In this document: in pieces, positions 12,489 to 62,466 of the stretch
Position numbering within the stretch: position 1 is the first letter of the stretch
How the letters are laid out: the number at the start of each line of letters is the position of its first letter
NCBI GenBank assembly: GCA_963924555.1
Contig: OZ004584.1
Coordinates: forward strand, 124,001-188,000
DNA length: 64,000 nt
DNA from: Crambe crambe
Lineage: Eukaryota > Porifera > Demospongiae > Poecilosclerida > Crambeidae
Reading direction: 5' to 3'
The notes under the pieces: model-generated
What the model saw: the letters and a program-made list of their open reading frames with translations, nothing else
The model's database searches: none
What the model was told of the DNA's origin: nothing
Translations under genes and position numbers: made by a program

Positions 12489-15400
12489 TCAGTTTGTCTT
12501 CTTTTTGTCAGTCTTCTTGACATGCTACATATTATGAAGATTATACCATGGCCCATGGGCACAATAGTAAAACATTACCTCTTTGACTTTCTTGGCTACT
12601 CCTCCATGATCCTCACTTTCCAGGGCAGCGATCAAACCACCCCAGGTCCGACTGTCCCTTCCATTTGCTGTTGCCTTCATTACATTATCATCTCCTCTCA
12701 ACCACGCATGCATTATATCATATTTTTCCATGTCCTTTAGTTTATGATAGTGTAGTCCCAGGGATCCACCAACCCCCCGCAACTCCTTCTTATCCAGTTT
12801 CTCCAGGAGGGAGCGGACTTCTTGGAAATTACTTGTATCAAGGGATTGTGCTGGAGTGTCCAGGGAGGAGGAGAAAGGTCACAGTGAGTGGGGTAATCAA
12901 AATTCAATATCCAAAACAGATTTAAAGAGATCAAAGGGAACTATAACTTTTCTAGCCTCGTACCCAGGCCCATTTTTTCAAGAAAAAAGCGGGCCTGGGT
13001 ACAAGGCTATAACGTTTCTTACCTAATTTGGAGCTGGCTTCATCATCAAGTTGTAACTACATCAATAAGAATAATGGATGATACCTTATGTCAATGCTTA
13101 TAACTAAGGGACCCCTTACCTTAGCTAATTCATCACGTATATTAGTCTTTGTCTTGCATTTTTTACATGCGACAGAATCACTTATTTCTTTTTGTCCATA
13201 TCCATAGCTCACGTAAGGAAGACTAGGCTGACTAGGCTTTGAGCATTTACGACACTTCACCTCAAGGGGCCCCCCATAGTACTTCAGTCCTTCAAGATTA
13301 CTGTCTTTACATATTGCAGAAAGAGATTTGTGGATATCTTTGATATGCTCAAGCTTATCATCATAAGGAGACCTGTGCAAAAAAATAAGTGACATTATTA
13401 CTGCAAGTTGATACAATTGGTTGTGGCTATTCTCTGCACAGAACTTACAAAACAGCGACAAAGAGTTTGTGGGAATTCCTCTCGTATTCCACTTTCCAGT
13501 GACAATCTTTGACATTATGGAGGAGACACACAGTACTGGTGAAGACATCAGTTTCTTGTGGGTCTGGTGAGGAATCAGTTTCAGCAGTATCAAGGAGCAA
13601 GCAGACCAACCGGTGGTAGATCTCGGCAGGAAGAAAACCACAAAAGTCAAAGTGCATGGAGAACCAGGGAAGATCAGAATGAAGATCTTCTTTTGTTAGT
13701 TCTGGAAGCTTGCAAGGGATGAAATATTTTACCTCTGAAGTCTCCTCAGCATGTGCCACCTCAAGATCAGGAGAATTAGACTCAGAATCTGCAGTTTTTT
13801 CAGCGAGAATCGAACTTCTTATGGGGAAGATGAGACAGTAAGCTCGAAGTATGAGACAGAGGTGACGTATTTCAATGCTAGTGACACCATTGTCATTCTG
13901 ATTGGTGAATTTCTTCCAGCAAACTTTAAGGAGGTTAAGATCAGCCACACCTTTCGTATCAAAGGTATCAATCTGAGTATTTGGAAGAATCTTTATATTT
14001 TCACTGCTTAGCTCCATTATGACTTTCATGACATCGAATATCCATGGTCGATGGAGAATCACAAGATCTTCGAGTTCCTTACGGTCATTGTCAGCTAAAA
14101 AGAGACGTGGCAAGTTTTCTGGAAAAAAAAGGAGAATTTTTATGAATTAAACCAGCTAGCTATTACTGGTGCTACTCACTTAGCCAGAGAATCTTGCCAG
14201 TATCATGGAAGAATTGGAATGCTACATCTTGCTCTTTCTCCTTGCCAAGACCACACTGCTTGGCTATTTCTCTCATCCTGCTCACATCCACAACAGGTGT
14301 GGATTTGCTGGAGATACGAAGATACTCAATGCAATCCTCCAAATAGAGGTAAATGACAGGGTGGTCCTCTTTCAGGAAAGGGAGGTCTTTAGTAGTTTCC
14401 TTGAGCTCATCTTGTAGATCCTTTGTCCCACTCTCAGCAAGGTACTTGTCGCCACGGGATTCTTTATCAATGGAATTCTCCACAAAAAACAGCTGCCTGT
14501 GAATATGATTACGATATCTTGATTTTTGATCCTTATCAAAAAATTTTTTAATCTTGTCGAGTTCAGAAGCACAGTCCCCTTTATGTGTGCCAACCAGAAG
14601 GACCCTTCTCAGATTTTGTTCCTCCTTAGAACTTTCTGTTGGGCATATTATGTGAGCGTGGATCGAGTGTAGCCAGTAGCGGAGCTCTTCAAACGGATTA
14701 AAAGCAGGATCATCAACTTTTTTTTCAATTTTTTCAATGTATTTCACCATATCTGGGGCTTTGAAGACTGCAAGGTACAGTGCTCGTCTTGAGATGAAGC
14801 AATGGTGCATTGGTCGATATTCCTTCTGCCCTGCAAAATCCAGAGTGTTTAGCACCAGAGAAGGACCCTTGTACTTCACATCAGCTCTCTTTTTCAATAA
14901 CTGATTGAGCCTTGAATAGTGTTTGCGACCCAGTGTTAGTGTTTCGGTACGTGATGGAGGAGGTGCTGGGGCGGTTGGAGTGGATGGAGATATCACAGGA
15001 GAGCTGGTTGGTGTTCCACTTGCTGCTGATTTTCCTGGTGGAGGTTTGCTGGCAAGTGGAAGTTTTTTTGTTGGTTTTTCTTTCTTCTCACTCTTTGCTG
15101 TTTCATTGGTGCTCGGAGGAGGAGGAGGAGGAGGTTGGGGTTGTGGTTTTTGCAGAGGTTTGCTCCTGCTGCTGAGACTAGAAACTGGATGAGTGATGGG
15201 AATTGGTGAAGGACCAAAAGATACGGTTTTCCTGGTTGGAAAATGTTCATAAAGTGGTCCATATGACTCTAATGAAGGGAAAGGACCACGTTGATAACTA
15301 TGGACAGGTGCAGCATCTAGTTGCTCAGACTCTAATCTTAATAACTCTTCAATTTCTGATATTATCTTTCGGATGATCTGTTTCAGATGCTCACAAGGAA

Positions 15401-17755
15401 CCACTTTCAACCTCTCCTCTTCCTTTCTCTTTGCATCAGGTATTTTTGGCCGCAGCAAATTTGCAACCTCTTCAGAGAAGAGGTTGCCACTCTCAGGAGC
15501 ATCTTTCTCCTGCCATTCCTCTATACTTAACTGTCTCAGATCGACTACAGTGTCCACTATCTTGTTATCAATCCCTCGTGTGGGATCCAGATCTTTCTGG
15601 AATTGTTTTCCGACCAGCTGGTGGTATAGACTTGTTTTGCCTGTTCTCTCCTGCCCAAGAATCAGCAATTTACAGCGAGGGATCTTGCGTCTGCCTTCCC
15701 GCAAGGTTTCTATGTAAATCTTCTTAGCTTGGGGACCTCTCTTCTCTATCTCCACAGGAATAATGAAAACTAAAGGGACCATGGAAAATCAGTGACAACT
15801 TATCAAACATTGTGGCTATTTAAACCACCTTCTTTTGGTGATAAATCATTAGGGATTTGTTGCTTCTTGAAAAAAAAAATAGAAACAGCCATCATAATTA
15901 TCTTGAGAATTTAAAAATATATCGTTAACTTACATTATTTTTCATCTGGTCCAATTTAGCACCACCATCAGAGCCCCTTATAACACTGGCAACAGAATTG
16001 CTTAACTTCTCAACTGCTATGTGCAAAGCTGTGTTATCCTGAAATAATTGGGGAGAGAAAATAGCTGACCTTCCCCAAAGGGTGTTAGAGAGGCACAACA
16101 CCACTCTGATGGGACCCATTTGTGGTTAAAACAATGTATTTTTATAGCCACAAAAATATCAAAATCCTTTAATGTGGTATTCAAGCACCACTCTGATCAG
16201 TTTCACTGGGGAGAACCCTGTGCAGATATAGTTACACTCCATTAAATATTGTAGCTAGCATTGAATCTGAATTTACATTAGCTCCAACTGTGCACATACA
16301 TACATTGGCATCTTGAGCATCCATGGGACACCCTCCTTTGATGAGGAGTCTGGCCACTGCATCTGTGTCATGGATGGCTGCCAAGTGGAGTCCAGTGTTC
16401 TTCATTCTAGTAGTACAGGCATACACGTCTACCAATGGCTTCAACTCCTGGTCCTCCAGCAGGTATTGGACCACCTCTTCCTTGCTGTACTCGCATGCCA
16501 CCAGCAATGGAGTGTAACCATTCTAATCACATGATTATCAGGTGAGACTACATGTACATAATTGCTACATGCATGCAGTTTACCTCCGACTCTTGGTTCA
16601 AACATTCTCTGGTTTTTAGCTCAGGGATGGTTGCTAGGAGCCACTTTAGTATGTCCACATGTCCCCTGGCACAAGAATGGTGGAGGACGTTCCAACCTTT
16701 CTAAGTAATGAAAAAGTATACCAGAATCAGTCAAGAACACATTAGCTATCCTGCTAAAATGAACCTTGTCTCTAGCCAAGAACAGCTCGCATCTCTGATC
16801 GTCACCAGAAAATATCATTGATGCTTCGTGGAGGTCTTGCAGCACGTGTAGCTGTCCCTCCTTCCCAGCTATGTGCACAGCATTCTGCCCCTTCTGTCAG
16901 TCCACATGCACCAAATCACACACCATGACGTACATGCAGAGTGGAACGTATATTTTTGTACCAATCCACTCTTTCTAATAACTTGCTTAGCAATAGTACA
17001 CACCTTATTAGAATCTGCACACTTTAATTTGCTGCATCCCATCAAGCTTTTGACTATTTCTTGATGGCCATTCTTGGCGGCATACATCAGAGGTGTCCAA
17101 CCCTAAATATTTAGTGCGTCCAGAGAATCGTATTGATAGACCCTCAACCAATATTATACCTCAGGGCGTTTCTTGCCATTTATGATGTGATCAAGGTCGT
17201 ACTGCTTGCTCTCTCGAGTAGCCAACACTTTCTGGTTCTGAGCCTTTTCCAGGATCATGTCTACCAAGTCAGCCTGTCCTCTGTTAGAGGCAATGTGCAG
17301 AGGTCCAAGGTGATTCTGCTACAAGTCAACAACATTAATAGAAGTTCCAGAATATAGAGACACTTGATACCATGTTATACCTTACTCCTGAATGCCACTG
17401 AAGCCCCCAACTCCACCAGCTTCTTTGCAATGTCTATCTTTCCCTCCTCCAAGGCCATCATGAGGGATGTGTATGCCAGGTACTTCTTAGGAACCTAAAT
17501 AGTTATCTCGATCAAACTAGCCGGCATAACACAGCAAGATCAGCTGTAACTACGAGCTACCTTAAGCTTGTTGCTGTCTACATCACTGCCATGGAAGTCC
17601 AAGGCTTGAGGTCCCACACTTTTCTTTCCCTTAAAGTGCTGCACTAGCGCGTCCCCGGCCATCTCCACCGCCTCCAAGTGCCCATTCAAGACGGCCTGGA
17701 ACAACACAGTCCGAAGATCTTTCTTCTTATTGTCTAGATTATCAAGACCCGACAT
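12489..17755 (-). CDS. ROCO protein A: ankyrin repeats - Roc GTPase - COR - Cys-rich - Death domain
   Basis: A large multi-exon gene read right to left. Exon 1 (17561-17755) starts MSGLDNLDNKKKDLRTVLFQ. Ankyrin units follow down to about 15930, with recognisable cores GWTPLMYAAKNGHQEIVKSL, GWNVLHHSCARGHVDILKWL and TGLHLAAIHDTDAVARLLI. The Roc exon (about 14172-15781) has P-loop GQERTGKTSL, switch II DFAGQKEYRPMHHCF and GTHKGD in the usual G4 position. Between P-loop and switch II is an inserted Pro/Ser-rich stretch. COR follows (about 13446-14113, PRLFLADNDRKELEDLVILH), then a segment with two CxxC pairs (CRKC, CKKC; about 13130-13375). The Death domain (about 12590-12830) has HAWLRGDDNV and TWGGLIAALE. 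The last exon (12489-12524) reads HVKKTDKKKTN. Roc-COR proteins are usually regulatory GTPases, and the Death domain implies homotypic signalling partners. The ligand is unknown. It shares an 84-bp promoter gap with ROCO B. Confidence 0.85.
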
Positions 17756-17839: not shown

Positions 17840-20800
17840 ATGTCTCAAAAGAAGAAAGACTTAGAGGGAGAGCTTCGGACAGCATTAGTGCAGGCTGTCC
17901 TGCATGGCCACTCGGAGGCGGCAGGAAAGGCGGGGAGTGCGCTAGCTCGGCACTTCAAGGCCAAGAAGAAATTCGGACCGCAAGCTCTGGATTTTCTTGT
18001 GCCAGACGAGTCCAAGGTAGCTATAGGGTAGGTGTGGGCATAGACTATAGAGGTTCATGTAGGAACCTATATAGTCTATGGTGTGGGTATTATGAGTCAG
18101 TCCCTATTATGGGTTCACCACTTGATAAAAATCTACTTTTTTTTTTTGGTCTTTTGATCAAATAAAATCATCCAGAAAAGTGCAGGGAAGCAATGATGCC
18201 ACAAGATGTTAAGTAATCTAAGGTTATTATTTTTATTTTGTAGAAATCTTAGCTACATTATCAATTTTTAGGACAAAAATCAAGCCAGCGACTCATAATT
18301 CATACCTATGACTCATAATACCTTCCTGAGTATGTTATGTAAGATCATAACTCCTATCTACAAGATGCAATATTTTTATTACTTTCTCCACACATTAGTT
18401 CTACATAACCTATTTTATATCTGGAGCAATTTTCAGGATTCTAAGATAGTCCATTTCCAAGAAAAGAGCAACAATACTTAGCTGACTCATAATACCCACA
18501 CCTACCCTATATATATATATAAGCTGAATATTTGACTGAATTGATGTTGCTTTTCAGGTGCCTGATGAGTTTAAGACTCACTCTCCTCTGATGATGGCTC
18601 TGGAGAAGAAGCAGTCTGACATTGCACAGAAGCTTGTAGAGTTAGGTGCCTCAGTAGCATTCAAAAACAAGGTAGGAAATCAGCTGCATAACTCAGATTT
18701 GAAAAAGTATGTTTTTAAAAAAATATTGGCAGGATGGTTTGACTGCTCTACACATCGCCTGCAACCAGGGAATTCCTAACACAACCCAATTCCTTCTTAC
18801 GACTGCCCAAACTCAAAAGCGATTTTGTCCGAAGAAGAAATCGGACAAGAAACCGGACCAGAACAATGATTGTGAGGTGGTAATCAATGCAAAGGAGAGG
18901 CCACAGGTAACTTAGCTATGCCTTCTATGGAACCAATAATTATTGTGCAATATTATTATTGATTTGCTTTAACTTTCTTGTTGTTAATGAACAACATCGT
19001 TGTTGTTTCAGCAGCTATACAATGTGCACAAACACTTTAAGTTTAATGATATCTTGATAGCATGGATAGCAAAACATGGCAACATGCCATCAGCCCCCAC
19101 TTTTAGCTTGGTGTTTCTGCCTCTGCTATAACTCCTTTCCCCAGGGTTGGACTCCACTGATGTATGCAGCAAAGGGAAGTCACCTGGACACCATCAAGGA
19201 GTTGATGAAGTATCCTTCCCTCAAATATGACGTCAAGAACAAGGTAGGAAGTACCAGGAATGCTTTCACACTATCTGTGGTTTACTGCAGTACTGTTTAT
19301 GTTCTGGTAAATCTGATAACATTTATTTCCAGAAACAACAGAATGTTTATCACGTGGTAGTGAGAGAGGGGAGACTAGAATGTCTGAAGTATCTCTGCAC
19401 ACCATCAGACGATTATCCACTACTGACACAGGATATCATCACGACAGCATGCTTGAGTAAAGATAAGGTATTCCAACACTGCTTCATGAAACTGATTTGA
19501 CCCTGACTACAAGCTCCTATTATTGACAGAAAAATTGGAATCTTCTTCATCAAGCATGCACTCGTAAAGAGGTGGAACTCTTAAAATGGCTGCTAGAGAA
19601 CATCCCTGGGCTAAAAGCAGAAGACAATTTGAACCAAAAGTCAGAGGTGAGTTCACCACAAGAATGGAATAAAAGAGGTTTTAACATTTATATAGCCATG
19701 AATATATGGTTACAACTGCATGCCCAGATTGGTTCTACTCCTCTTCTGGTGGCTTGTGAGTATGAACACCTGGACATTGTGAAGCATTTGACTACTGATG
19801 AATTCCTGAAAGTTGATGTGAACGCTTGTTCCCATAGTGATGGAGAAGGAGAAGGTATTAGTTGTCTTCACCTAGCAGCTATTCATAATTCCCAAGAGAT
19901 GACCGAGGTTTTGATCGAGGCTGGTTGTAAGCTGGACTGCAGAGATGCGGAGGTGAGAGAGCCAAGCAAGTTATTTGTGTGATGATTATGACTGCTATAA
20001 TAACTATTATAGGGAAACACAATTCTTCATGTTGCCAATATGAGGGCAAATCTCAAAGTGGCTCGTTTTATCATTGAAAAATGTAAAGAAGTAGAAGTGA
20101 ACTTGGAAATTATGAAAAACAAAGTATGTGCAGTGTACAAAACTCAGAATACCAAACAAAATTTAACTTCTGTATTTGTTACATAGGATGGAAAGCTTCC
20201 CAGTGAAGTGGAGGAAGGTGAGGGTTATTCAATTCAAATGGATTGTCATGATCTAAAATAATGTTCAATATCATAGAAATTGTCGTTCCTCTTGAAATTC
20301 TGAAGCTTGGCCAAGAAGCTGTTGAAATTTACATGAAAGCATTGGAAGAGGGCAGAGAAAAGATTCCTTACTGCGGTTTGCTGATTTTGGGGGAGGAACA
20401 AGTGGGGAAAACAAGTCTATATCGCCAGCTGGTCGGCAAGGAGTTTAAAAAGGATCTTGACAGCACTCGTGGTATTGACAATAACACAGTGGACACTGTG
20501 GACCAGCGACACGTTGATACCGGAAAATGGAAGGAAGAAGATGAACCTGCAAGTGGTGAGCAGTTCACAACTGCATTGGCTGGGGAAGTGGCAAGTAGAC
20601 TCCCTGATGATGCACCCAAGGACGAAAAAGGCAAGGAGATGGTGACAAACGAGGATCTCATGAAAAGAATTGATGAAATCACTCAAGAGATAACTAAAAT
20701 GAAAGAAAAGTCGAAAACCCAGTCAGAACAGCATCGAGTGAAGTCTACTACGCCAGCTTTTCCACGAGAATCTCACCCCTCCAAACCTGTCCCCAAGTCT

Positions 20801-23442
20801 CTACCACCTCAATCTCCAAAGCAAACCCCACCAGAGAGTTCTCCCCCATCTAAGAAACCCAAGATCGATGAAGATAAAGAAAGGCCTCAACCTCTGAATA
20901 AACCGGAAGACCGAAACAGGCAAATAAAGATTGCGATGCCTAAACCGATCGAAGAGCCTCCTCCTCCATCACTAGATGAAAGTGATTCCATGGCAATACC
21001 TGAGACGGCAGAAGACCCCTCTCCCTCTGATGCTAACCCAGAGGAAAATCCTCGCAAACAGGAAGCAGGGCTGCTGAATCCCAAGCAGGCTACTGTCTTC
21101 AAAGATCGTATCAAGAACAGAGGGAAATTCAAGAAGAAGGAGCCATCACTGGTATTGAATGCTCTGGATTTTGCTGGGCAGGAGGAATATCGACCGATGC
21201 ATCACTGCTTCATCTCAAGACGAGCCCTCTATGTTGTTGTCTTCAAGATCCCAGATGTACTGGATTTCATTAATGGAAAAAGTAAAAGCAACCCTCTGGA
21301 AGAAGTCCGCTACTGGATCTATTCCATACATGCTCACATCTACCCTCCCGATGAAGACCTGAAGGATGTGGATGAAAAAATCAACAGGGTATTCCTCGTC
21401 GGAACACACCGAGGCGATCCACCACGTCCTCAAAATGAGCTTGAGAAAATAGATGATTTGATTTACACTACATTGATTGAGAAGAAGAAAGAAGGTGTGA
21501 ATCCCTGCATCAATCACATTCATCCCTTTGGGAAAAAGAGTCTTACTAAATATTTTTTAGCCGTGGAGAATTCAATTGATTGTATAAAAGATGAGAACTA
21601 TCTTACCAATAGTGGAACAGAATTCTTGCAAGATCAAATAAAAGAGAAGTCTAAAATGATGCCAACTTTAAATGATGATCATCCGATTAAGTGGCTAAAG
21701 TTTGAAGAGCGTCTTAAGAAATGTCGGGAGTCCAGGAAACCTGCTCCAGTGATGAAGATGGAAGAAGCTCGAGAACTCGCTGCTAAGTCTCGTATCATTG
21801 CAGAAGATGAGCAAGACTTGGCACTGCGATTCTTTCATGATACAGGAAAGATCATTTGCCTCAGTAAGATAGTCCTATTTTTACATATTTTTTAAAATAT
21901 TTTTTTAAAAATGAAATGTAGGATACTTGCCACGCCTGTTTTTGAGCCCTAAAGAACTGGAGGAACTGGTTCATCTGGTGGTGCTTCATCCTCACTGGCT
22001 CATCTCTGTGATGAAGGTCATCATGGAACTCAACATTAAAGAGTTCAGTGGAACACTAAAGCAGTCGCAGATACAAATTCTGAAGGAGGAGGGAATAGCA
22101 GATCTTGAAGTCCTTGAAGAATGCTGGAAACAGTTTATGTCTGTTCCTGGATCACCTCCTGATATTGAAATACGCCACCTTTGCCTGATCTTGCAAGCTT
22201 ACTGCCTCATTTACCCAGTTCCTCAATCACCTGCTTCCACTTCCACTTCTGAAGAACCTCAGGAGGAGAAGGTTCAAAAGTACATCATTCCTTGCAAGCT
22301 CCCTAAAAACTTTTCGGAATATCGGGTCCCAAAAATTACCAATTGGACCACTTTTTTCTTTGAATTTGAATATTTTCTTCCTGATGAGATCTATCACCGG
22401 ATTCTCTGCCTTGCCTCATCTGAAGCTAAGCCTCCTCGAAAGAAGTGTAACATTTACTCCAATAAGAGATGTTTATATTATGGCTTGTTCGAAACTAACT
22501 GGATCTTCGAAATTGAGAGAGAGAAACAGAGACTGAAATTCATGGTCATGTGAGTCCAATGAAGAAGTTACATTAGCTAACTATTTAATTTTCAGGTTAT
22601 TATGCCTTTTATTGCAGTATGAAGAAAGGGAAGAAATTTACCGAGTATGTCTTGTTCATCCACAACTACCTTTACAAGATTTGTAAGAACAGTGGCGAAG
22701 GAGGGGGCAAGGAGAGTGGTCTAAGAGGACTCACCTTTCATGGAGGGCCTGAGGTGACTTGCTGTGGAGAGACCACTGTGCTCGAATGTGTTTACTATGA
22801 CAGCAATGAAGAAGGCTGTGAGAAAGAGGTTAACTCCAACCCAGCTTGTGATGACTGTGGGATGGAGTATGAAGTGAATGAAATGTTCAAATATAAGGTA
22901 ATGATCTTGAAGTTCTAGCTAGGAGGAGCATTTTCACTTCTTCTGACACTGTGTACAGGCACCACAAGCTCAGCCAAAGGAAAAAGATTCTGCTCCTCCA
23001 ACAAGTAAGTTTCATTTAGCTATATTCATAGAGTGATAGCTACTTTACCTTCTTGGATATTCCAGCACAACTCCTAACAGAGAAACACCACCGCAAAGTC
23101 TGTGATCTCCTGTGGGAGCTAAACCCATATGATTGTAGGGTTGTGGGTGGAGCTCTGGGACTCTACCACTTTACTCTAAAAAAGATAAGTGATGATAAAT
23201 TCCCTGATGATATGGTTGGGGCGTGGTTGAAAGGAGATGATAATGTACTGAGAGCAGCAGCAGATGGAGGAGACAGTCGGACCTGGGGTGGTTTGATTGA
23301 TGCCCTGGAAAAGCAGCATCATGGAGGAGTAGCCAAGAAAGTCAGAGGTAATAAGCTCTTAGTGTTGTGCCATGGGCATACTCTTTATTATCATCATGTA
23401 GCATATCAAGAAGAGAAAGACAAACTGAACCTCAGTGTGTAA
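17840..23442 (+). CDS. ROCO protein B: ankyrin repeats - Roc GTPase - COR - Cys-rich - Death domain
   Basis: Fifteen exons placed from splice signals: 17840-18016, 18558-18671, 18733-18906, 19145-19243, 19333-19467, 19530-19646, 19738-19952, 20013-20123, 20187-20217, 20277-21863, 21922-22549, 22618-22897, 22959-23004, 23066-23347 and 23402-23442; about 1,345 aa. Start MSQKKKDLEGELRTALVQAV was chosen because it matches the starts of A and C. Ankyrin cores include GWTPLMYAAKGSHLDTIKEL and STPLLVACEYEHLDIVKHL. The Roc exon has P-loop GEEQVGKTSL (about 20390-20416), DFAGQEEY (about 21167-21190) and GTHRGD. About 250 residues separate P-loop and switch II, mostly a charged helix plus a Pro-rich stretch (PPQSPKQTPPESSPPSKK). 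COR starts PRLFLSPKELEELVHLV. The Death domain has GGALGLYHFTLKKI and TWGGLIDALEKQHHGGVAKK. Intron 1 carries a MITE-like insertion absent from C. Biological role unknown; a signalling GTPase is inferred. Confidence 0.88.
18022..18511. mobile_element. MITE-like element with ~30-bp terminal inverted repeats in ROCO B intron 1
   Basis: The right end (18482-18511) is the reverse complement of TATAGGGTAGGTGTGGG plus TATTATGAGTCAG. The left end has the same sequence (18022-18038 and about 18081-18100), split by a 42-bp palindromic insert (18039-18080; arms CATAGACTATAG / CTATATAGTCTATG). No coding capacity. The matching intron of ROCO C (23932-23991) lacks the element and retains the flanks, giving an empty site. 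TA or TATA looks like the target duplication. Confidence 0.75.
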
Positions 23443-23493
23443 TCTGATGAACCAACTTTTTAGCAGTCCATTGGCAATATACATTACAGATAT

Positions 23494-23698: not shown

Positions 23699-23728
23699 TT
23701 ATTATGTGGGCGTGTGCTCGTAGATAAA
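23699..23728 (+). promoter_or_regulatory. Conserved upstream box of ROCO C, shared with the DD-DD gene
   Basis: ATTATGTGGGCGTGTGCTCG followed by TAGATAAA ends a few bases before the ROCO C ATG (23734). Almost the same string recurs at 28987-29017 upstream of the DD-DD gene. It is probably a core promoter or 5'UTR fragment carried along by duplication. Confidence 0.5.
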
Positions 23729-23733
23729 GTAAA

Positions 23734-26700
23734 ATGTCTGGTCGAGCTCATAGCAAGCAAAAGGAACTGAAGAAAAAAGAGGGAGAACTTAGGACGGCAT
23801 TAGTGCAGGCTGTCTTGCATGGCCACTTGGAGGCGGCAGAGAAGGCGGGGAGTGCGCTATCTCAGCATTTCAAGAGCAAGAAGAAATCTGGACCGCAAGC
23901 TCTGGATTTTCTTGTACCAGACAAGTCCAAGGTATATAATAATAGCTATATATAAACTGAATATTTGACTGCATTGATGTTGCTTTTCAGGTGCCTGATG
24001 AGTTTAAGACTCACTCTCCTTTGATGATAGCTCTGGAGAAGAAGCAGTCTGACATTGCACAGAAGCTTGTAGAGTTAGGTGCCTCAGTAGCATTCAAAAA
24101 CAAGGTAAATCGGCTGCATAACTCAGATTTGTGAAAAAGAAAAAGTATGTTTTTAAAAAATATTATTGGCAGGATGGTTTGACTGCTCTACACATAGCCT
24201 GCAACCAGGGAATTCCTAACACAACCCAATTCCTTCTTAAGACTGCCCAAACTCAGAAACGATTTTGTCGGAAGAAAAAACTGGACCAGAGCAATGATTG
24301 TGATGTGGTGATCAATGCAAAGGAGAGGCCACAGGTAACTTAGCTATGCCTTCTATGGAACCAGTTATTTATCTTGACGTTTCTGCCTCTGCTATCAGTT
24401 GCATAAACTTTTTTTCTTTCTCCTTTTCCCCAGGGTTGGACTGCACTGATGTATGCAGCAAAGGGAGGTCACCTGGACACCATAAAGGAGTTGATGAAGT
24501 ATCCTTCCCTCAAATATGAGGTCAAGAACAAGGTAGGAAGTAATAGGAATGCTTTCACACTATCTGTGGTTTACTGCTGTACTGATTATGTTCTGGTAAA
24601 TCTGATAACAATTTTCCAGAAAGAACAAAACGTTTATCATGTGGTAGTGAGAGAGGGGAGACTAGAATGTCTGAAGCATCTCTGCACACTATCAGAGGAT
24701 TATCCACTACTGACACAGGATATCATCAAGACAGCATGTTTGAGTAAAGATAAGGTATTCCAACACTGCTATATGAAACTGATTTGATTGACCCTGACTA
24801 TTATTGACAGAAAAATTGGAATCTACTTCATCAAGCATGCACTCGTAAAGAGGTGAAACTCTTAAAATGGCTGCTAAAGAACATCCCTGGGCTAAAATCA
24901 GAAGACAATGTGAACCAAAAGTCAGAGGTGAGTTCACCACAAGAATGGAATGAAACATGTTATCTACATAGAGGTTTTAGCATTGGTTACATCTGCATGC
25001 CCAGATTGGTACTACGCCTCTTCTGGTGGCTTGTGAGTATGAACACCTGGACATTGTGAAGTACTTGACTACTGATGAGTCCCTGAAAGTTAATGTGAAT
25101 TGCCATTATGATAAAGAAGGCAATGGTATTAGTTGTCTTCACCTAGCAGCTTTTCATAATTCCCAAGAGCTAGAGATGGCTGAGGTTTTGATTGAGGCTG
25201 GTTGTAAGCTGGACTGCAAAGATGCTGAGGTGAGAGAGCCAAGCAGGTTTGTGTGATGATGACTGCTATAATAACTATTATAGGAAAACACAATTCTTCA
25301 TGTTGCCAATATGAGGGCAAATCTCAAAATGGCTCGTTTTATCATTGAAAAATGTAAAGAAGTAGAAGTGAACTTGGAAATTATGCAAAACAAAGTATGT
25401 GCAGTGTACAAAAATACCAAACAAAATTTAACTTCTGTGTTTGTTACATAGGATGGAAAGCTTCCCAGTGAAGTGGAGGAAGGTGAGGGTTATTCAATTC
25501 AAATGGATTGTCATGATCTAAAATAATGTACAATGTCATAGAAATCATCATTCCTCTTGAAATTCGGAAGCTTGGTCAAGAAGCTGTTGAAATTTACATG
25601 GAAGCATTGGAAGAGGGCAAAGAAAAGATTCCTTACTGTGGTTTGCTGATTTTGGGGGAGGAACAAGTGGGGAAAACAAGTCTATATCGCCAGCTGGTCG
25701 GCAAGGAGTTTAAAAAGGATCTTGACAGCACTCGTGGTATTGACAATAACACAGTAGACACTGTGGACCAGCGACACGTCAATACCGGAAAATGGAAGGA
25801 GGAAGATGAACCTGCAAGTGGTGAGCAGTTCATTACTGCATTGGCTGGGGAAGTGGCAAGTAAACTCCCTGATGATGCACCCAAGGACGAGAAAGGCGAG
25901 GAGATGGTGAAAAATGAGGATCTCATGAAAAGAATTGATGAAATCACTCAAGAGATAACTAAAATGAAAGAAAAGTCGAAAACTCAGTCAGAACAGCATC
26001 AGATGAAGTTGGTATTGGAGCATCTACTATCAGCTCTTCCACGAGAATCTCCCCCTTCCAAACCCCCTGTTCCAGAGTCTCTACCACCTCAACCTCCAAA
26101 GCAACCCCCACCAGAAAAGTCTCCCCCTCCTAAAAAACTCAAGATTCACGAAGAAAGACCACAGCCTCCGAATAAACCTCCAGAAGACCTTGAAAATAGG
26201 ACAAGAGAGATTGTATTGCCTAAACCAATCGAAGATCCTCCTCCTCCATCACTAGATGAAAGTGATCCCATGGAAATAGCTCAGACGGCAGACCCCACTC
26301 CTTCTGACGCTAACCCAGACGAAAGCCCTCACAAACAGGAAGCAGGACAACTGGATCGCAAGCAGGCTACTTTCTTCAGAGATCATATCAAGAACAGAAG
26401 GAAATTCAAGAAGAAGGAGCCATCACTGGTATTGAATGCTCTGGATTTTGCTGGGCAGAAGGAATATCGACCAATGCATCACTGCTTCATCTCAAGACGA
26501 GCCCTCTATGTTGTTGTCTTCAAGATCCCAGATGTACTGGATTTCATTAATGGAAAGAGCAAACGCAACCCTCTGGAAGAAGTTTGCTACTGGATCCATT
26601 CCATACATGCTCACATCTACCCTCCCGAAGAAGATATGAAGGATGTGGATGAAAAAATCAACAGGGTGTTCCTCGTCGGAACACACCGAGGAGATCCACC

Positions 26701-28787
26701 ACGTCCTCAAAATGAGCTTGAGAAAATAGATGATTCGATCTATGAAACATTGATTAAGAAGAAGAAAGAAGGTGTGAATCCCTGTACCAATCACATCCAT
26801 CCCTTTGGGGAAACGAATTCAACTAAGTATTTTTTAGCCGTGGAGAATTCAATTGATATAAAAAAGGATAAGAAGAACTATCGTAGCAATAGTGGAACAG
26901 AATTCTTGCAAAATCAAATAAAAGAGAAGTCCAAAATGATGCCAACTTTAAACGATCATCATCCAATTAAGTGGCTGAAATTTGAACAGCGTCTTAAGAA
27001 ATATCAGGAGTCCAGGAAACCTGCTCCAGTGATGAAGATAGAAGAAGCTCGAGAACTTGCTGCTAAGTCTCGTATCAATGCAGAAGACAAGCAAGACTTG
27101 GCACTACGATTCTTTCATGATACAGGAAAAATCATTTGCCTCAGTAAGATGGTCATATTTAGCTATGTACTTTAGATATCAAAATCAAAGTGTTTTGTTT
27201 TTGTTTATTTGTTGTTATTTTTTGATATTTTATTGTTGTTATTTTTTCTCGAAATGTAGAATACTTGCCACGCCTGTTTTTGAGCCCTGAAGAACTGGAG
27301 GAACTGGTTAATCTGGTGGTGCTTCATCCTCACTGGCTCATCTCTGTGATGAAGGTCATCATGGAACTCAACACAAAAAATTATGTTCAAACACTGAAGC
27401 AGACGCAAGTACAAACTCTGGAGGATGAGGGAATAGCAGATGTTGAAGTCCTTAATGAATGCTGGAAGAAGTTTGTGTCTGTTCCTGGATCACCTCCTGA
27501 TATTGAAATACGCCATCTTTGCCTGATCTTGCAAGCTTACTGCCTCATCTACCCAGTACAGTCAACACTTGCTGAGTGTCAAGATCCTACACCACCTTCT
27601 CAATCACCTGCTTCCATTTCTGTTTCTAAAAAGGAGAAGGTTCAAAAGTATATCATTCCTTGCAAGCTCCCTGATGATCTTCCAGAATGTCAGGTCAAAA
27701 AAATTACCAACTGCAGATGGACCACTTTTTTCTTTGAATTTGAGTATTTTCTTCCTGATGAGGTCTACCACAGGATTCTCTGCCTTGCCTCATCTGAAGC
27801 TAAGCCTCCTCGAAAGAAGTGTAATGTTTACTCCAATAAGAGATGTTTATATTATGGCTTGTTTGAAACTAACTGGATCTTCAAAATTGAGAGAGAGAAA
27901 CAGAGACTGAAATTCATGGTCATGTGAGTGCAATGAAGTTACAGTAGCTATTAACTTTCATGTTATTATGTCTTTTATTGTAGCATGAAGAAAGGGAAGA
28001 AATTTACCGACTATGTCTTGTTCATCCACAACTACCTTTGCAAGATTTGTAAGAATAGTGGCAAAGGAGGGGGCAAGGAGAGTGGTCTAAGAGGACTCAC
28101 ATTCCGTGGAGGGCCTGAGGAGACTTGCTGTGGAGAGACCACTGTGCTCGAATGTGTTTACTATGACAGCAATGAAGAAGGCTGTGAGAAAGAGGTTAAA
28201 TCCAACCCAGCTTGTGATGACTGTGGGATGGAGTATGAAGTGAATGAACTGTTCAAATATAAGGTAATAAGTTCTAGCTAGGAGGAGCATTTCACTTCTT
28301 CTGACACTGTGTACAGGCACCACAAGCTCAGCCAAAGGAAAAAGATTCTGCTCCTTCAATAAGTAAGTTTCATTTATATTCACAGAGTGATGTAGCTACT
28401 TATAAATACTTTGCCTTTTTGGATATTCAGAGCCACAACTCCTAACAGAGAAACACCACCGCAAAGTCTGTGATCTTCTGCGGGACCTAAACCCAGATGA
28501 CTTGAGGAATGTGGGTGGAGCTCTGGGACTATTACATTCTACTCTAAAAAAGATGAGTGACAATAAACTCCCTGATGATATGGTTGAGGCATGGTTGAGA
28601 GGGGATGATAATGTACCAGAGGATAGTCAGACCTGGGATGGTTTGATTGTTGCCCTGGAAAAGCAGCGTCATGGAGGAGTAGCCAAGAAAGTCAGAGGTA
28701 ATAAGCTCTTAGTGTTGTGCCCGGCCTGGACCATTACATACTTTTTATTATTATCATGTAGCACATCAAGAAGAGGAAGACAACTGA
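23734..28787 (+). CDS. ROCO protein C: ankyrin repeats - Roc GTPase - COR - Cys-rich - Death domain
   Basis: Tandem copy of ROCO B with the same intron positions and very similar introns. Exon 1 (23734-23931) starts MSGRAHSKQKELKKKEGELR. Ankyrin exons run to about 25450. The Roc exon (about 25548-27147) has P-loop GEEQVGKTSL (about 25669-25695), switch II DFAGQKEYRPMHHCF and GTHRGD. Its Pro-rich insert is slightly longer than in B (PPQPPKQPPPEKSPPPKK). COR (about 27262-27925) starts PRLFLSPEELEELVNLVVLH; the Cys-rich exon spans about 27984-28264. The Death domain exon starts at 28431. Compared with B it lacks six residues after GDDNV, an in-frame loss before QTWDGLIVALEKQ. The last exon (28762-28787) ends QEEEDN. 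About 1,350 aa. It has diverged from B mainly by substitutions in the Roc insert and COR. Function inferred as for B. Confidence 0.86.
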
Positions 28788-28842
28788 ACTCAGGTGTTTT
28801 TTAGCAGTCCATGATTACATAATTTTTATGAACTGCAGATAT

Positions 28843-28854
28843 TGCGCATGCGCA
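28843..28854. promoter_or_regulatory. NRF1-like palindrome upstream of the DD-DD gene
   Basis: TGCGCATGCGCA inside the duplicated block also found at about 23485-23535. It lies 207 bp before the DD-DD ATG and just after the ROCO C stop codon. The shared promoter box at 28987-29017 lies between it and the ATG. Confidence 0.5.
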
Positions 28855-29060
28855 CTGGCTAAGTCAACTCCACCCATTTTTGTTATTTTAGACCCACTTC
28901 CACCTACTGCCATGCTTCCTGAGCATCATCTTCTGAAGCTCTTTCCTAGATCCTGCTGTCTCATAGCGCGCGCCCCTTGCTGATCTATTATGTGGGCGTG
29001 TGCTCGTAGAGATAAATTATAAGCCCCGCCCCTTAATGAAGATACTGATTACGTGCATAA

Positions 29061-29956
29061 ATGGCTGCTGAACTCGATCCTGAATCGCAGAGTGAGTTTT
29101 TTTGTTTTGATAATGTGAGTGATAGATAATCTGTTCCAGCTTTGGGTGTTAGAAATCTCAAAGAAGTGAAGAACTTTATCTGGGATGCTTTTACAAAATG
29201 GCACCCTTTAGGGGTGGAGTTGGAGTTAAATCCTGTTGCACTGCAAGCCACCAGAACCAAATTCAGCGATGATCCTGCCATGTGCTTCGATCAAATGCTA
29301 CAGGATTGGTTATTGGGTCAAGGTTTACAGCCTACATGGAGAAACTTGGCATCAGCTTTGAGGGCACAGCCAATCAACATCCCTGCCCTTGCAAGTGCTA
29401 TTGAGAAGAAATACCTCAATAAATATCAGGTAAACTTTAGCTAGGAGGAGCATTTTTTACTTCTTCTGACACTGTATACAGGCACCACAAGCTCAGCCAA
29501 AGGAAAAAGATTTTGCTCCTCCAACAAGTAAGTTTGTTTATTCACAGCTAGCTATTCATATACTTGACCTTCTTGGATATTCCAGCACAACTCCTAACAG
29601 AGAAACACCACCGTGAAATCTGTGACCTCCTGCGGGAGCTAAACCCAAATGATTGTAGGATTGTGGGTGGAGCTCTGGGACTCTACTACTTTACTCTAAA
29701 AAAGATAAGTGATGATAAACTCCCTGATGATATGGTTGGGGAATGGTTTAAAGGAGATGATAATGTACTGAGAGCAGCAGCAGATGGAGGAGACAGTCGC
29801 ACCTGGGATGGTTTGATTGATGCCCTGAAAAAACAGCATCATGGAGGAGTAGCCAAGAAGGTAGAAGAGGTAATAACATCTAGTATTATGCCCATTAACT
29901 ATAGACATTATCTTCATTATTTTATCATGTAGCACATTAAAAGGAAGGCAAACTGA
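29061..29956 (+). CDS. Small two-Death-domain protein (DD-DD), likely signalling adaptor
   Basis: Five exons (29061-29091, 29140-29429, 29482-29527, 29586-29869, 29933-29956) join in phase to 224 aa with no enzymatic domain. The first domain (residues about 12-105) follows the Death-domain pattern: LGVELELNP, then FDQMLQDWLLGQGLQPTW, then LASALRAQ and ALASAIEKKY. It has no close copy in the ROCO genes. A 15-residue linker APQAQPKEKDFAPPT follows. The second Death domain (residues about 122-215) reads GGALGLYYFTLKKISDDKLP, MVGEWFKGDDNV and TWDGLIDALKKQHHGGVAKK, nearly the same as the ROCO Death domains. The last three exons and parts of their introns copy the end of the neighbouring ROCO genes. 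A basic tail HIKRKAN ends the protein. An adaptor role by homotypic pairing with ROCO A-C is inferred; no such gene is known to me. Expression is not shown by sequence alone. Confidence 0.8.
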
Positions 29957-30159
29957 AGCTCAGTGTTTGATCTAATGGACCAGCTTTAGAGTACCAACAG
30001 TCACATATTAACAATTCATTATAGTTTTTTTATATTGCATGTATTGGTGGGTCAGCTCCACTAACCCTGGACTAAAGAGTGACATTTTACTCCAGCTTGA
30101 GTCTCATAAGCCAGAAGGGTCTGGAAAGTTGTGTTGGCAATTTTATCTGTGGAGTGATA

Positions 30160-30275
30160 CCCTTTAAATCCTGTTGCACTGCAAGCCACCAGAACTAGAT
30201 TTAACAATATTCTGCAGGATTGGTTATTGCATGCATCCTGCACACTTGATTCCTGTCCTTGTAAATGCAGACTAG
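30160..30275 (+). pseudogene. Decayed second copy of the first-Death-domain exon of the DD-DD gene
   Basis: AATCCTGTTGCACTGCAAGC, then CACCAGAAC and CAGGATTGGTTATTG, match 29229-29319 of the DD-DD exon in the same orientation. Internal deletions remove part of the domain and the frame is lost. It lies about 200 bp after the DD-DD stop codon and shows that the gene was duplicated at least once more. Confidence 0.75.
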
Positions 30276-30477: not shown

Positions 30478-33400
30478 ATGTTTGGAAGAAGTTGCCGCTT
30501 GAGACCTTTTTCTAGACTGCAGGTGAGGGACTTTGCTAGCCGGCTAATATTTATTAGCACCTAGCTATTATTCTTAGTGGAATTTCTCATTCTATGCTTC
30601 AACTATTGACTTTAGGTGGCAGGAATTCTATTTATTGGATTTTTTGTAGGCTACCATTTCCTTCCTCAAATACTGTCAGGCAGTGTAAGTCGGAAAGTCA
30701 GTAAGACAAAGTTGTCAAACACGTTTCAACGTAAGTGGGGGAACAACCGTGTAGCTAGTTTAGCTACTAAGCAGTACCAGTTTTCAACAGCTAATTTAGC
30801 TTGATTAACTAGGGGCAAAGCCACAATAATGATAGGACTTTAGTTATACTAGACTACCAAATGATATTGCACTCTCCCATTCAGAAAGAGCCCTAGTGGA
30901 TGAACAGCAAAGAGTTCCGTTGGCTATGCAGCTAAGCAGAAAGGCGGTGAAGAGACAGAGGGCTATTCAATTCACACCGTCAGGGCGAGAGTTTGTGATA
31001 TTGGGGAAGAAGAAGAAGATTCTAAGTGGAGCCATTCACTACTTCCGTGTGGTGCCAGCTTACTGGAATGACAGGCTTATTAAGCTCCAGGCTGCTGGTC
31101 TTAACACTGTCGAGACGTATGTAGGCATAGATACCGCATGTGAACGTCATTTGACATGTCACTTATAGGTACATGCCATGGAACCTGCATGAGCCCACTC
31201 CTGGGAAGTTTGATTTTACAGGGATCCTGGATGTGGTGAATTTCTTAGCCATTGCACACACCCTTGGACTGCATGCTATCGTGCGCCCTGGACCATACAT
31301 ATGCTCCGAGTGGGAACTGGGAGGATTCCCTGCGTGAGTGTAACCATCCCTTGTAACCTCCACCCCTTTCATCCCTTCATCATTCCTCCTCCAACCCCCT
31401 CCTCAACCTCCTACCTCACGCCTTCCTCTTCCAACCCTCCTCTTCCTCCAACCCCCCTCCTTAACCTCATGCCTCCACCCTCCCTTTCCCCTCTCCTGCC
31501 TCCAACCCTCCCTCCTCATGCCTCCCTCCTCTCACGCCTCCACCTCCCTCTCCCCTCTCCTGCCTCACACTTCCCTCTTCCAACCCTCCCTCCTCATGCC
31601 TCCTTCCTCAACCTCCATCCTTATGCCTCCCTCCTCACCCTCCCTCCTTTTACACCTCTCTCATCTTACCCACCTTCTTCTTTCAGCTGGTTGCTGCACG
31701 ACCCAAACATGGTACTGCGTAGCACTTATCCTGGTTACTTGGAAGCAGTGCAACGCTACTTTGCCAAAGTGTTGGAGCTCCTAGGTCCTCTGCAGTCAGT
31801 GAATGGTGGTCCCATCATTGCCTTCCAGATTGAGAATGAGTATGCTGATTACTTCAGGGACTTGAACGAGGGCAGGAAGTACATGAGTTTCCTGTACAAG
31901 GTAAGGGATGTCAAATTGGAAGGTAGAGCCTGGACAGGGACATGGAGATTTTGGGTAGGAACCCCCAAAACAAGGAAATGGCTTTAAAAATTTTATAAGA
32001 CCAATAAAATCATAATATAAAAAATAAGCATTTTTGAAAGTCTAAAAAAATGGCTTGAATGGTTAGATTCACATTAGAGTGTTGTTGGTCTCGTGAAGCC
32101 ATTTTTTTGGAGATTTCCTAAGTCTATAGCCTTGGGAAATAGCTAAATGTTTTACATGACTGATTTATGTTTTAATGATCAAAGTCAATCTAGGCATCAT
32201 GCTGAATGGTTGGATACATATCTGCATTCAGCATGATGCCTAGATTAACTTTAGACCATTAAAACCTAAATCGGTCATATAAAGAATTTTAGACTTTGGG
32301 AAATTTCCAAAAATGGCTTACATGACTGATTTAGGTTTTAATGGTCTTGTAAAAAATTAACCATTTCCTTGTTTTGGGTTGTTGTTTTTTAAAAACTTTC
32401 ATCATACAAATCTTTGTGTCGCTTTCAGCTAATGCGTAATTTGGGAGTAGTGGAACTTCTTTTTACTTCTGATAGTCAAGACTCAGTGGAGAACTCCCTC
32501 ATGCTCCGCCCAGCTGAAGACGTCTTGCTTACCATCAACTTCATGACAGATAGAAATGGAATTAAGAACCTCACAAGACTTCAGGTGGGCTGATCACATG
32601 ATGATCATGTGACAGGCAGCTTGATTTACGTAATTATGTCTCAACAGCCAGACAAACCAGCAATGGTGATGGAGTTGTGGTCAGGCTGGTTTGACCGCTG
32701 GAATGAGATCCATCTGACTCGCAACCAGATGCCTCTTGAGTTGGGGGCGAAGGTGGGTGATCTCTTGGACAGAAGTGTTTCCATGAACTTTTATATGTTT
32801 CATGGTAAGAAAACAGTATTGAGTATTCTGAACTTCCCCTTCAGTATCGAGTGTTCTAATTAGAGGAACTTCCCCTTCAGTAGCGAGTGTTCTAATTAGA
32901 GGAACTCCCAGTGTTCTAATTAGAGGAACTTCCCTTCAGTATCAAGTGTTCTAATTAGAGGAACTTCCCCTTCAGTATTGAGTGTTCTAATTAGAGGAAC
33001 TTTCAGTGTTCTAATTAGAGGAACTTCCCTTCAGTATCAAGTGTAGTGTTCTAATTAGAGGAACTTCCCTTCAGTATCAAGTGTTCTAATTAGAGGAACT
33101 TCCCCTTCCTTTTTATAGGTGGGACCAACTTTGGATTTATGAATGGAGCAAGTTGGGGCTACGGAGGTTCCTATCTCCCTATTATCACCAGTTATGGTAT
33201 GTGACTCATACAATCCAACCATGTGATCCTATGACTCTCTCCGTGACCAATCATGTGACCAGATTATGGAGCCCCTCTGGGTGAGAATGGAGACATTACT
33301 CAGAAGTACCAAGAGATAAGGAAAGTTATCCAAGAGAAGGCAGCCAGCAGCATGGGTAAGTCAGCCTCTTCCAGTAAGCAACTAATAATGACCTTAACAC

Positions 33401-51900: not shown

Positions 51901-53652
51901 TGTTGGCTAGTCATGCTCTTATTCATAGTTAATGTGTTAGCATTGTTTAATATTCATTGGTTGTCTCCATATCATAGTGTCCAAGTATAATATGATATGC
52001 CCTCCTTTCCCTCTCCCCCTCCCTCCCTTTCCCTTCCCCCTCTCCCCTCCCTTCTCCCTCTCCCCTCCCTCTCCCCCTCCCTCCCTTCTCCCTCTCCCCC
52101 TCCTTCCCTTCTCTCTCCCTCCCTCCCTCCCCTCTCTTCCCTCCTCCCTCTATCTCTCCTCCCCTCTCTACAGACACAGGAACTGTTTCTTCCAGAAGCC
52201 AAACTCCTAATAGAGTCGTCTTCGTTATTCCAGCAACGTGATCTTGCAAAGGCAGTGGCCATCTCTCCAGTCCAGTCCCCCAAGTATATGTACCGTCTCC
52301 ACAGCTTCTACAAGGAGCTCCAATATAATAGAACCATGGAGAAGGCAAAACTGGTTGCAAACAAGATGCTAGCCTCACAGCCTTTCATTCCTTCTCACCT
52401 TCGCTCCACTTTCCAGCTCCATGCCTCCACTGCCACGTCCCCGCAAAGTCCCAGCCACGCCTCTCAGCAGCAACAAAAACTTGATGGGGGTGTGGTTATC
52501 CGCCCACGACACATTCCAAGAAATAAATTTGAGGTAAATTACTGGGAGTATTTCAATCAGACGAGGTTGATGTCAATCATGCACGAGTCACCAGCTCGAG
52601 GCATCATAGGAGGGATTCGGGAGGAGGCTCGATTCGCTCTCACCAAAGCCATTTACCAAGCCAATCATGGAATTCCACAGGCTCAGCGATACATTTTCGA
52701 TAAACTTGAGAACGGATACCACCGAGTGGACCCCATGAGAGGTTCAGAGTTCATTCTTGATTTCATCTTTCGGAAGCAGTCCGATAAAAGTGTCAAGATC
52801 AAAAAAAGACTTTCTATTCTTCGTCCGTTTCATGAAACAGTAGTCCCCATAGAAGCACCCGAAATGCTCCCCACTGTCAACTTCCTTGTGACCCTTTCGG
52901 GTTTGAGTAACCGGCTGGAGCACTTCCTGATGCAGTATGAGAGGAACGTGCTTCAACTAGGAGAGGATGCTACCCTCACCATCGTCCTGTTTGAGAGTCC
53001 AGATGCAGCCAAAGTACGATTTATGGTCCAGCAGTACCTCACACGTTACCAAGGTGCTAAGATGACTGTACTTGACATTCGAGGAGACTTTGCCAGAGGG
53101 GTGGGGCTGCATCATGGAATGGAGAAATTCCAGGAGGACCAGTTAATGTTTATCGTTGATGTGGATCTTGATATATCAACAGATTTTTTACAGAGATGTC
53201 GACTGAATACAATCAAAGGCAAACAAATTTATTTTCCAGTTTTCTTTAAACTTTATAACAAGGAGTTTGTTGATCGCTATCACCACAAGAGAAACCACAC
53301 CCTTTTAATCTCACGGCACAGAGGACATTGGGCCCACTATTCCTATGGGATGGTCTGCATTTATGCCTCTGATTACCGAAAGTCGGGAGGTTTTGATGTT
53401 TCCATGCGAGGTTGGGGGGAAGAAGATGTGGATCTATTAAACAGAGTCTTGAAGAGTGGACTAGAGGTATTTAGAGCACCTGACCCTGGCCTTATTCATA
53501 ACTGGCACAGTAAAAGTTGTAACAAGGACAAAATCTCTAATCCAGCTGTGTACGAGCACTGCCTGCAATCAAAAGGTGAAAACTTAGCTGACAGAATCGA
53601 ACTGGCACAGTACGTGTTTGAGAATGAACTTAAGAAAGGGAACACGTTATAG
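48952..53652 (+). CDS. Chondroitin synthase/polymerising-factor family protein: degenerate GT31 plus intact GT7 domain
   Basis: Two exons, 48952-49992 and 52174-53652, join in phase to 839 aa. The ATG at 48952 is chosen because a type II membrane anchor (YSLLLIGVMVGLSLSLML) follows it. The N-terminal GT31 (beta-1,3-GlcA transferase) fold is recognisable (LLVAVITS, TQVIFFVGEGS) but key motifs are lost: the usual DDD-x-Y reads IGDRTYV, CMGGPG reads CRKDPG, and EDVELGRC reads SSLGGC. The C-terminal GT7 (beta-1,4-GalNAc transferase) domain is complete: IVDVDLDI (DxD), FLQRCRLNTIKGKQIYFPV, GWGEEDVDLL and LIHNWHSKSC, closest in wording to CSGALNACT/CHSY. It likely acts in the Golgi on chondroitin-type chains, either as polymerising partner or GalNAc transferase. 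Relation to CHPF is plausible but not decided by sequence alone. Confidence 0.85.
51985..52172 (+). repeat. Pyrimidine-only tract before a 3' splice site
   Basis: About 180 bp of CCCTCTCCCT-type sequence with almost no purines leads into CTCTACAG (acceptor for the exon at 52174). The rest of this 2.2-kb intron (49993-51984) is AT-rich with scattered repeats and no gene I can support. Confidence 0.88.
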
Positions 53653-60543: not shown

Positions 60544-60735
60544 CTCCTTGCTGAGCGAGGACTTTATTTAGTGCATTATTATTATATACATGACGAGGCA
60601 AAACGGTTCTATTTTTTTTAAAAAAATTGTTATATTGCATTCTCAAAATACAGTAGTTGAAATAATTTTGCGCGCGAAATTAAGAGTTGCGAAGCATTTC
60701 TCATTTGCGAGAGAGAGAAGCAGGTCATAGCACAG

Positions 60736-62281: not shown

Positions 62282-62466
62282 TTATTGTTGTTTGTTTGTC
62301 TGTTTGTCTATTTGTTTGTTTAGTTTTTTTAGTCAATTTGGCATAAACAAATTTCCGTGGGATAATTATTTGCGCGGATTAATGTGGGCGTATCTGATAA
62401 CGAAGCCAAGCTCATCCTGTTTGCATTGTTAGATCTCCATGATCAGACTGCAAGCTGGTGGACGAG

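Follow-up and report, generated by a model that had tools for sequence, protein, structure and literature searches.

The DD-DD gene encodes a small protein with two Death-type domains, DD1 and DD2, and by its alignments it is a chimera, with exons 3 to 5 derived from a neighboring ROCO gene and joined to a foreign Death exon. In its layout it looks like the third unit of a tandem ROCO array, with the Ank-Roc-COR body swapped for that exon. Our first choice among the readings, to which we give a probability of roughly 45%, is that this ROCO-derived hybrid acts as a bridging adaptor. The window, the whole 64,000-nucleotide stretch of DNA analyzed, corresponds to C6:124001-188000, and the genome searched comprises 143 Mb in 119 contigs. 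A gene with two Death domains is in itself unsurprising in this genome; the distinctive part is a hybrid origin that can still be read.

The gene model and its ROCO-derived parts

The five-exon, 224-aa gene model is present as an earlier note on this DNA described it, with four GT-AG introns (48, 52, 58, and 63 bp), a frame kept across all the joins, and no internal stop (Table 1). Exons 3 to 5 and their splice sites have homologous counterparts in both ROCO B and ROCO C, and exon 2 is backed by a family of paralogues. For exon 1, which follows an in-frame TAA immediately 5′ of the ATG, the best ungapped match across 19 paralogue loci (about 3.3 kb each) agreed at 20 of 36 bases, and none was a convincing counterpart. 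The predicted protein consists of one Pfam Death domain, a linker, and a ROCO-type end domain; no other Pfam family exceeds its cut-off in the 224 residues, which hold neither Roc-COR nor a TRADD-N domain. A PDB search with the protein returned no Death match. The spliced protein gave no match at E 1e-3 among 775 candidates from the protein database, a result that says little, since the database appears to consist of single-exon ORFs and the length filter would discard relatives the size of an exon. None of the four polyadenylation-type hexamers sought occurs within 260 bp 3′ of the stop of either DD-DD or ROCO C, and one of them, AATATA, is located 3′ of ROCO B.

Table 1. Features of the DD-DD locus, in window positions
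Feature	Position	Strand	Remarks
ROCO A (Ank-Roc-COR-DD)	12525..17755	-	extent read from ORFs and homology
ROCO B (Ank-Roc-COR-DD)	17840..23442	+	extent from ORFs and homology; closest relative of the DD-DD 3′ half
ROCO C (Ank-Roc-COR-DD)	23734..28787	+	extent from ORFs and homology; has the 25-bp 5′ block also found upstream of DD-DD
46-bp block	28836..28881	+	44/46 identical to the ROCO B-ROCO C spacer; holds GCGCATGCGC
25-bp block	28986..29010	+	its end lies 51 bp 5′ of the DD-DD ATG; same sequence as 23700-23724
DD-DD exon 1	29061..29091	+	MAAELDPESQ, 10 aa; weakest part of the model
DD-DD exon 2	29140..29429	+	Death domain 1 (DD1); last 9 bases and donor site match a ROCO exon end
Approximate fusion point, DD1 sequence/ROCO-derived sequence	29418..29421	+	ROCO B/C similarity starts at AAATAT before the common donor
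Segmental copy of ROCO 3′ end	29421..29987	+	introns and 3′ flank included
DD-DD exon 3	29482..29527	+	linker; ROCO exon copy, 45/46 bases as in ROCO B
DD-DD exon 4	29586..29869	+	Death-type domain 2 (DD2), ROCO type
DD-DD exon 5	29933..29956	+	C-terminal tail; reading frame differs from ROCO B and C
Decayed partial second DD1-exon copy	30164..30230	+	87% over 53 bp plus 15/15 bp

Each of the three neighboring ROCO genes combines ankyrin repeats, a Roc domain, a putative COR region, and a DD2-like end domain. Roc scores 49.5, 58.1, and 56.8 bits in ROCO A, B, and C (Pfam cut-off 27), all COR-A matches stay under the cut-off of 35.3 bits when the genes are scanned ORF by ORF, and no kinase domain was found in the scanned ORFs. 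The ROCO B ORF matched 332 proteins in the protein database, the top two being the window’s own. The earlier note had all three ROCO proteins ending in almost the same Death domain as DD2; that is apt for ROCO B (88% identity) and ROCO C (74%), but not for ROCO A, which is on the opposite strand and reaches 50%.

Similarity to the ROCO genes runs through introns and 3′ flank as well as exons. Positions 29438-29987 are 85.8% identical to ROCO B (22916-23459) over 564 aligned bp, and positions 29421-29968 are 79.4% identical to ROCO C (28255-28799). The similarity begins within the ROCO exon that precedes the linker exon, 9 bases before its donor, and since it starts inside that exon, DD-DD exon 2 is a fusion exon using a ROCO donor. 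Dated by the Death exon shared with ROCO B (dS 0.106, dN 0.054), the union is a recent one.

On the 5′ side, the spacer separating ROCO B from ROCO C has counterparts in two blocks located after the ROCO C stop and before the DD-DD start. The longer block, whose 23-base core occurs in just two places at ≤2 mismatches, sits at the end of the alignable part of the ROCO B and ROCO C 3′ flanks; it is thus explained as ROCO 3′ flank and is uninformative about DD-DD itself, which leaves the 25-bp block to carry the 5′ argument. The counterpart of this shorter block stops 10 bp short of the presumed ROCO C ATG, and at ≤3 mismatches the 143-Mb genome holds these two copies only, with none for the reversed control; nor did any of 200 spacer shuffles give a match at E 1e-8. 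Searched against the genome, the 180 bases 5′ of the DD-DD ATG found only themselves, so the flank similarity is confined to the short block. This block suggests that ROCO sequence has been retained on either side of the unit; DD-DD and ROCO C may be under common regulation.

The earlier note had read the linkage of DD-DD to the ROCO genes as a receptor-plus-adaptor cassette. Because both the 3′ half and the 5′ flank block are copies of ROCO DNA, the linkage is explained instead by tandem duplication, and a conserved cassette of DD-DD and ROCO genes was rejected as the reason for it. As a separate observation, the palindrome GCGCATGCGC, which we take to be NRF1-like, occurs four times in the window (11315, 12427, 23495, and 28844) against a mean of 0.00 in 100 shuffles, and three of the four copies lie just past ROCO gene ends.

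The source of the first Death domain and other Death pairs in the genome

DD1 is a Pfam Death domain (PF00531; 31.1 bits against a cut-off of 22.6), and the profile of its family finds PIDD Death domains in the PDB at E 0.02. For DD2 the assignment is less direct. Alone it has no match to Pfam Death (PF00531), although 3 of the 20 members of its family alignment do (E ≤ 0.1, best 0.003). When family profiles are compared, that of DD2 aligns with the DD1 profile (hhalign 85.8%, E 5e-6) and, more weakly, with a profile of seven Pfam Death domains from the same genome (47%, E 2e-4). Among PDB entries the DD2 profile finds PIDD Death domains at E 0.16 and 0.31, with unrelated proteins scoring better (best E 0.005). 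We treat DD2 as a probable, divergent Death domain, an assignment made by profile comparison. The two Death domains beside three Ank-Roc-COR-DD genes that the earlier note described are therefore there, DD1 by Pfam and DD2 by profile only, and its separation of a ROCO-type DD2 from a DD1 of another type is borne out, DD2 being a ROCO copy and DD1 belonging to a family of Death-TRADD-N type.

That family is large. At E ≤ 3.5e-26, DD1 has at least 67 non-self matches in the genome, at 51-66% identity; among the matches listed, at least 55 are on contig C10, two have an internal stop, and a few are partial. Ten 10-kb contexts were fetched, nine of them around DD1 paralogues, and seven of these nine share a TRADD-N-like downstream ORF of about 260-285 aa whose homology is clear; L051 has a weak relative of it (20% identity) and L055 has none. 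Pfam TRADD-like_N exceeds its cut-off in one of eight downstream ORFs and NCOA6_TRADD-N matches three of eight below its cut-off; run against the genome, the TRADD-N Pfam model gave no match, but its controls gave none either. Pfam ankyrin repeats are present at L049, L050, L056, and L057. Judged by the company its paralogues keep, DD1 is an N-terminal Death domain of the Death-TRADD-N family kind.

This kind of family has been described in another sponge. In Amphimedon, 357 proteins of the Death-TRADD-N (NCOA6 clade) family represent a huge expansion, the majority of architectural types carry one to three N-terminal Death-like domains, and ankyrin repeats are among the commonest C-terminal parts (PMC8195603). 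Architecture shuffling of Death-TRADD-N genes in sponges is therefore already published (same source), and exon shuffling within ROCO genes, of LRR exons, is described for brown algae (PMC11378527).

Against 22 paralogue exons, some of them mutually identical, DD1 shows dN of 0.23-0.33 with dS above 1.6 or saturated, and three paralogue pairs gave similar dN values (0.25-0.31). By these distances DD1 is no recent copy of any of the 22 exons compared and has long been constrained; given that the union with the ROCO sequence is young, most of this constraint would predate the fusion. At C10:810105-815073 (L012 and L013), DD1-type exons stand in tandem every ~1.7 kb, with retroelement-looking sequence between them.

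Paired Death domains are not unique to this locus. The genome has at least 150 Pfam Death matches (the best 150 of 965 candidates). At L060 (C6:392000-394000), one ORF holds two Pfam Death domains and, after them, a hydrophobic segment that by eye looks membrane-like; L059 (C20) has two Death exons about 280 bp apart; and at L050 (C10:1156821-1157756, minus strand), a different Pfam Death exon (26.0 bits) comes 295 bp after a DD1-type Death exon. The last pair lies upstream of a Death-TRADD-N-like-Ank gene and fits the one to three N-terminal Death-like domains given in the Amphimedon study (PMC8195603). These three loci resemble DD-DD in that two Death domains, at these loci both recognized by Pfam, lie close together (the first at L050 being DD1-type), but the L060 pair shares its ORF with a membrane-like segment, the other two are neighboring exons that may belong to separate transcripts, and none of the three has a DD2-type (ROCO) match at E 1e-3. 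A fourth candidate, L061, was dropped, as Pfam gave one Death domain only. Further Death matches lie on C6 up to 405 kb.

By eye, no other co-located pair of a DD1-type and a DD2-type match at ≥50% identity was found among the matches listed (150 of each). At lower identity, L062 has a 39% DD2-type and a 29% DD1-type match about 1 kb apart, and at C10:7667295-7670100 (plus strand) a 38% DD1-type match (7667295) and a 46% DD2-type match (7669846) lie 2.5 kb apart, a possible second DD1-DD2 neighbor pair. In at least five places (C9 twice, C16, C8, and C18; by eye), DD2-like matches of 34-45% follow Roc-like GTPase ORFs on the same strand at 1-3 kb, where a tail of ROCO type would be expected. 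Among the matches listed, the nearest relative of DD2 beyond the window (53-56%) is the last part of a locus, L053 (C9:8133000-8142900), that also has a long, by eye ankyrin-like ORF and matches ZU5 at borderline strength. On C21, a fusion of DD1 with a Roc-like GTPase (L055) was considered and rejected: the splice phases fit, but a 90% identical copy of the GTPase at C21:821098 has no nearby DD1 among the matches listed, and the frame changes between the two ORFs. Counting itself, the L055 GTPase has 92 matches (E ≤ 1e-20), L066 among them, and open frames of about 700-850 aa hold most of these; the C21 copy had no PDB sequence match at E 0.01.

A proposed bridging adaptor and the competing readings

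The hybrid origin of the gene, like its two domains and their families, is legible in the sequence itself; expression, co-regulation, binding, and bridging are predicted. On the sequence evidence, the last unit of a tandem array (ROCO B, ROCO C, and a unit D) retained its three final exons and a portion of its 5′ flank, and where the Ank-Roc-COR body would be it carries a Death exon of the Death-TRADD-N-like-Ank family. A small protein with two Death-type domains results, encoded behind a 5′ flank that is ROCO-like. Such a protein would be made together with ROCO C; DD2 would bind the ROCO Death domains homotypically, DD1 would bind partners that recognize DD1-type Death domains of the Death-TRADD-N type, and the protein would thereby bridge the two families. 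A bolder version is promoter and tail capture, in which a tandem GTPase-receptor unit was hollowed out and refilled with the Death exon of a second receptor family, so that a co-expressed adaptor between two previously separate death-fold networks arose in a single step; we hold this to be doubtful. The locus offers a view of an early step in the rewiring of death-fold networks, with fusion point, donor family, 5′ block, and relative age all readable at one place. The hybrid might link two protein families of the sort implicated in cell death and immunity, and if it does bridge them it would be a concrete, testable case of a new adaptor arising through exon exchange.

Our second choice, which we nonetheless think unlikely, is that the protein is a decoy or cap, with DD2 occupying the ROCO Death domains and damping ROCO assemblies. 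The small protein has two Death-type domains and no effector or GTPase part, DD2 is nearly a copy of the ROCO B end domain, and the common 5′ block suggests co-expression, all of which would suit a decoy; there is, moreover, precedent in the CARD-only and pyrin-only proteins, which damp inflammasomes; regulators of this kind are a recognized theme (PMC3775265, PMC10803020). But a pure decoy would have no need of a second, separately constrained Death domain, and DD-DD has one.

In comparison with ROCO B, 24 of 352 aligned sites differ in exons 3 to 5 and 32 of 162 in introns 2 to 4 (p = 3e-5); the corresponding counts for ROCO C are 43/333 and 35/169 (p = 0.03), these pairwise contrasts also including constraint on the ROCO genes. 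When the changes are polarized with ROCO C, the DD-DD branch carries 13 in 310 sites of exons 3 and 4 as against 15 in 160 intron sites (p = 0.04), and inclusion of exon 5 moves the test to 16/333 versus 15/160 (p = 0.07). The coding changes on the branch in exons 3 and 4 are 5 synonymous and 7 nonsynonymous (p = 0.11); over the whole comparison with ROCO B they are 6 and 11 (p = 0.16). Constraint on DD-DD as a new gene is suggested by these figures, not established.

The same figures bear on the view that DD-DD is a neutral by-product, a recent chimeric duplicate devoid of function whose decay is still to come. The dS to ROCO B is low, informative changes are few, the branch test rises above 0.05 once exon 5 is counted, and the adjoining second DD1 copy has decayed, as a neutral history would allow; however, the frame is intact through five exons, the exons have changed less than the introns, and DD1 bears the marks of a long history of constraint, albeit mostly from before the fusion. 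We judge a neutral origin to be improbable. More improbable still is an alternative ROCO C tail, in which exons 2 to 5 would be spliced to the ROCO C Death exon to give Ank-Roc-COR-DD-DD1-DD2 and there would be no separate gene: exon 4 of ROCO C ends in the phase in which DD-DD exon 2 starts, joining the two gives a frame that stays open as far as the stop, and exon 1 is the unsupported part of the DD-DD model, but ROCO C already has a last exon of its own with a stop at 28787, and a ROCO-like block lies near the DD-DD start codon, which itself follows an in-frame stop.

DD-DD beside known systems

FADD and CRADD are small, soluble, bipartite adaptors in which a Death domain is paired with a DED or a CARD. 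DD-DD is like them in being made of two death-fold domains only, and unlike them in that both are of Death type and its partners are only predicted. In their Roc domain, putative COR region, and Death-type end domain, the ROCO genes of the window resemble ROCO proteins of the DAPK1 type, which have Roc-COR and a C-terminal Death domain (PMC6337361), and DD2 is a copy of the end domain of such genes; unlike that type, the scanned ORFs of ROCO A to C have no kinase domain, and the DD-DD protein lacks a GTPase part. With the Death-TRADD-N proteins of Amphimedon (PMC8195603), DD-DD has in common DD1, the same kind of N-terminal Death exon; it differs in having neither TRADD-N nor ankyrin repeats and in taking a second Death-type domain from a ROCO gene. 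Among the titles and abstract beginnings listed in searches of an open-licence library, none names a hybrid, made of Death domains only, between a ROCO gene and a Death-TRADD-N gene. Directly downstream of DD-DD, at 30836-31987 (plus strand), is a gene of glycosyl hydrolase family 35 (beta-galactosidase type), with its Pfam match in the ORF 30836-31168; farther along the same strand are a chondroitin N-acetylgalactosaminyltransferase ORF (51991-53652) and two Fringe-like glycosyltransferase ORFs (60661-61746 and 62443-63435).
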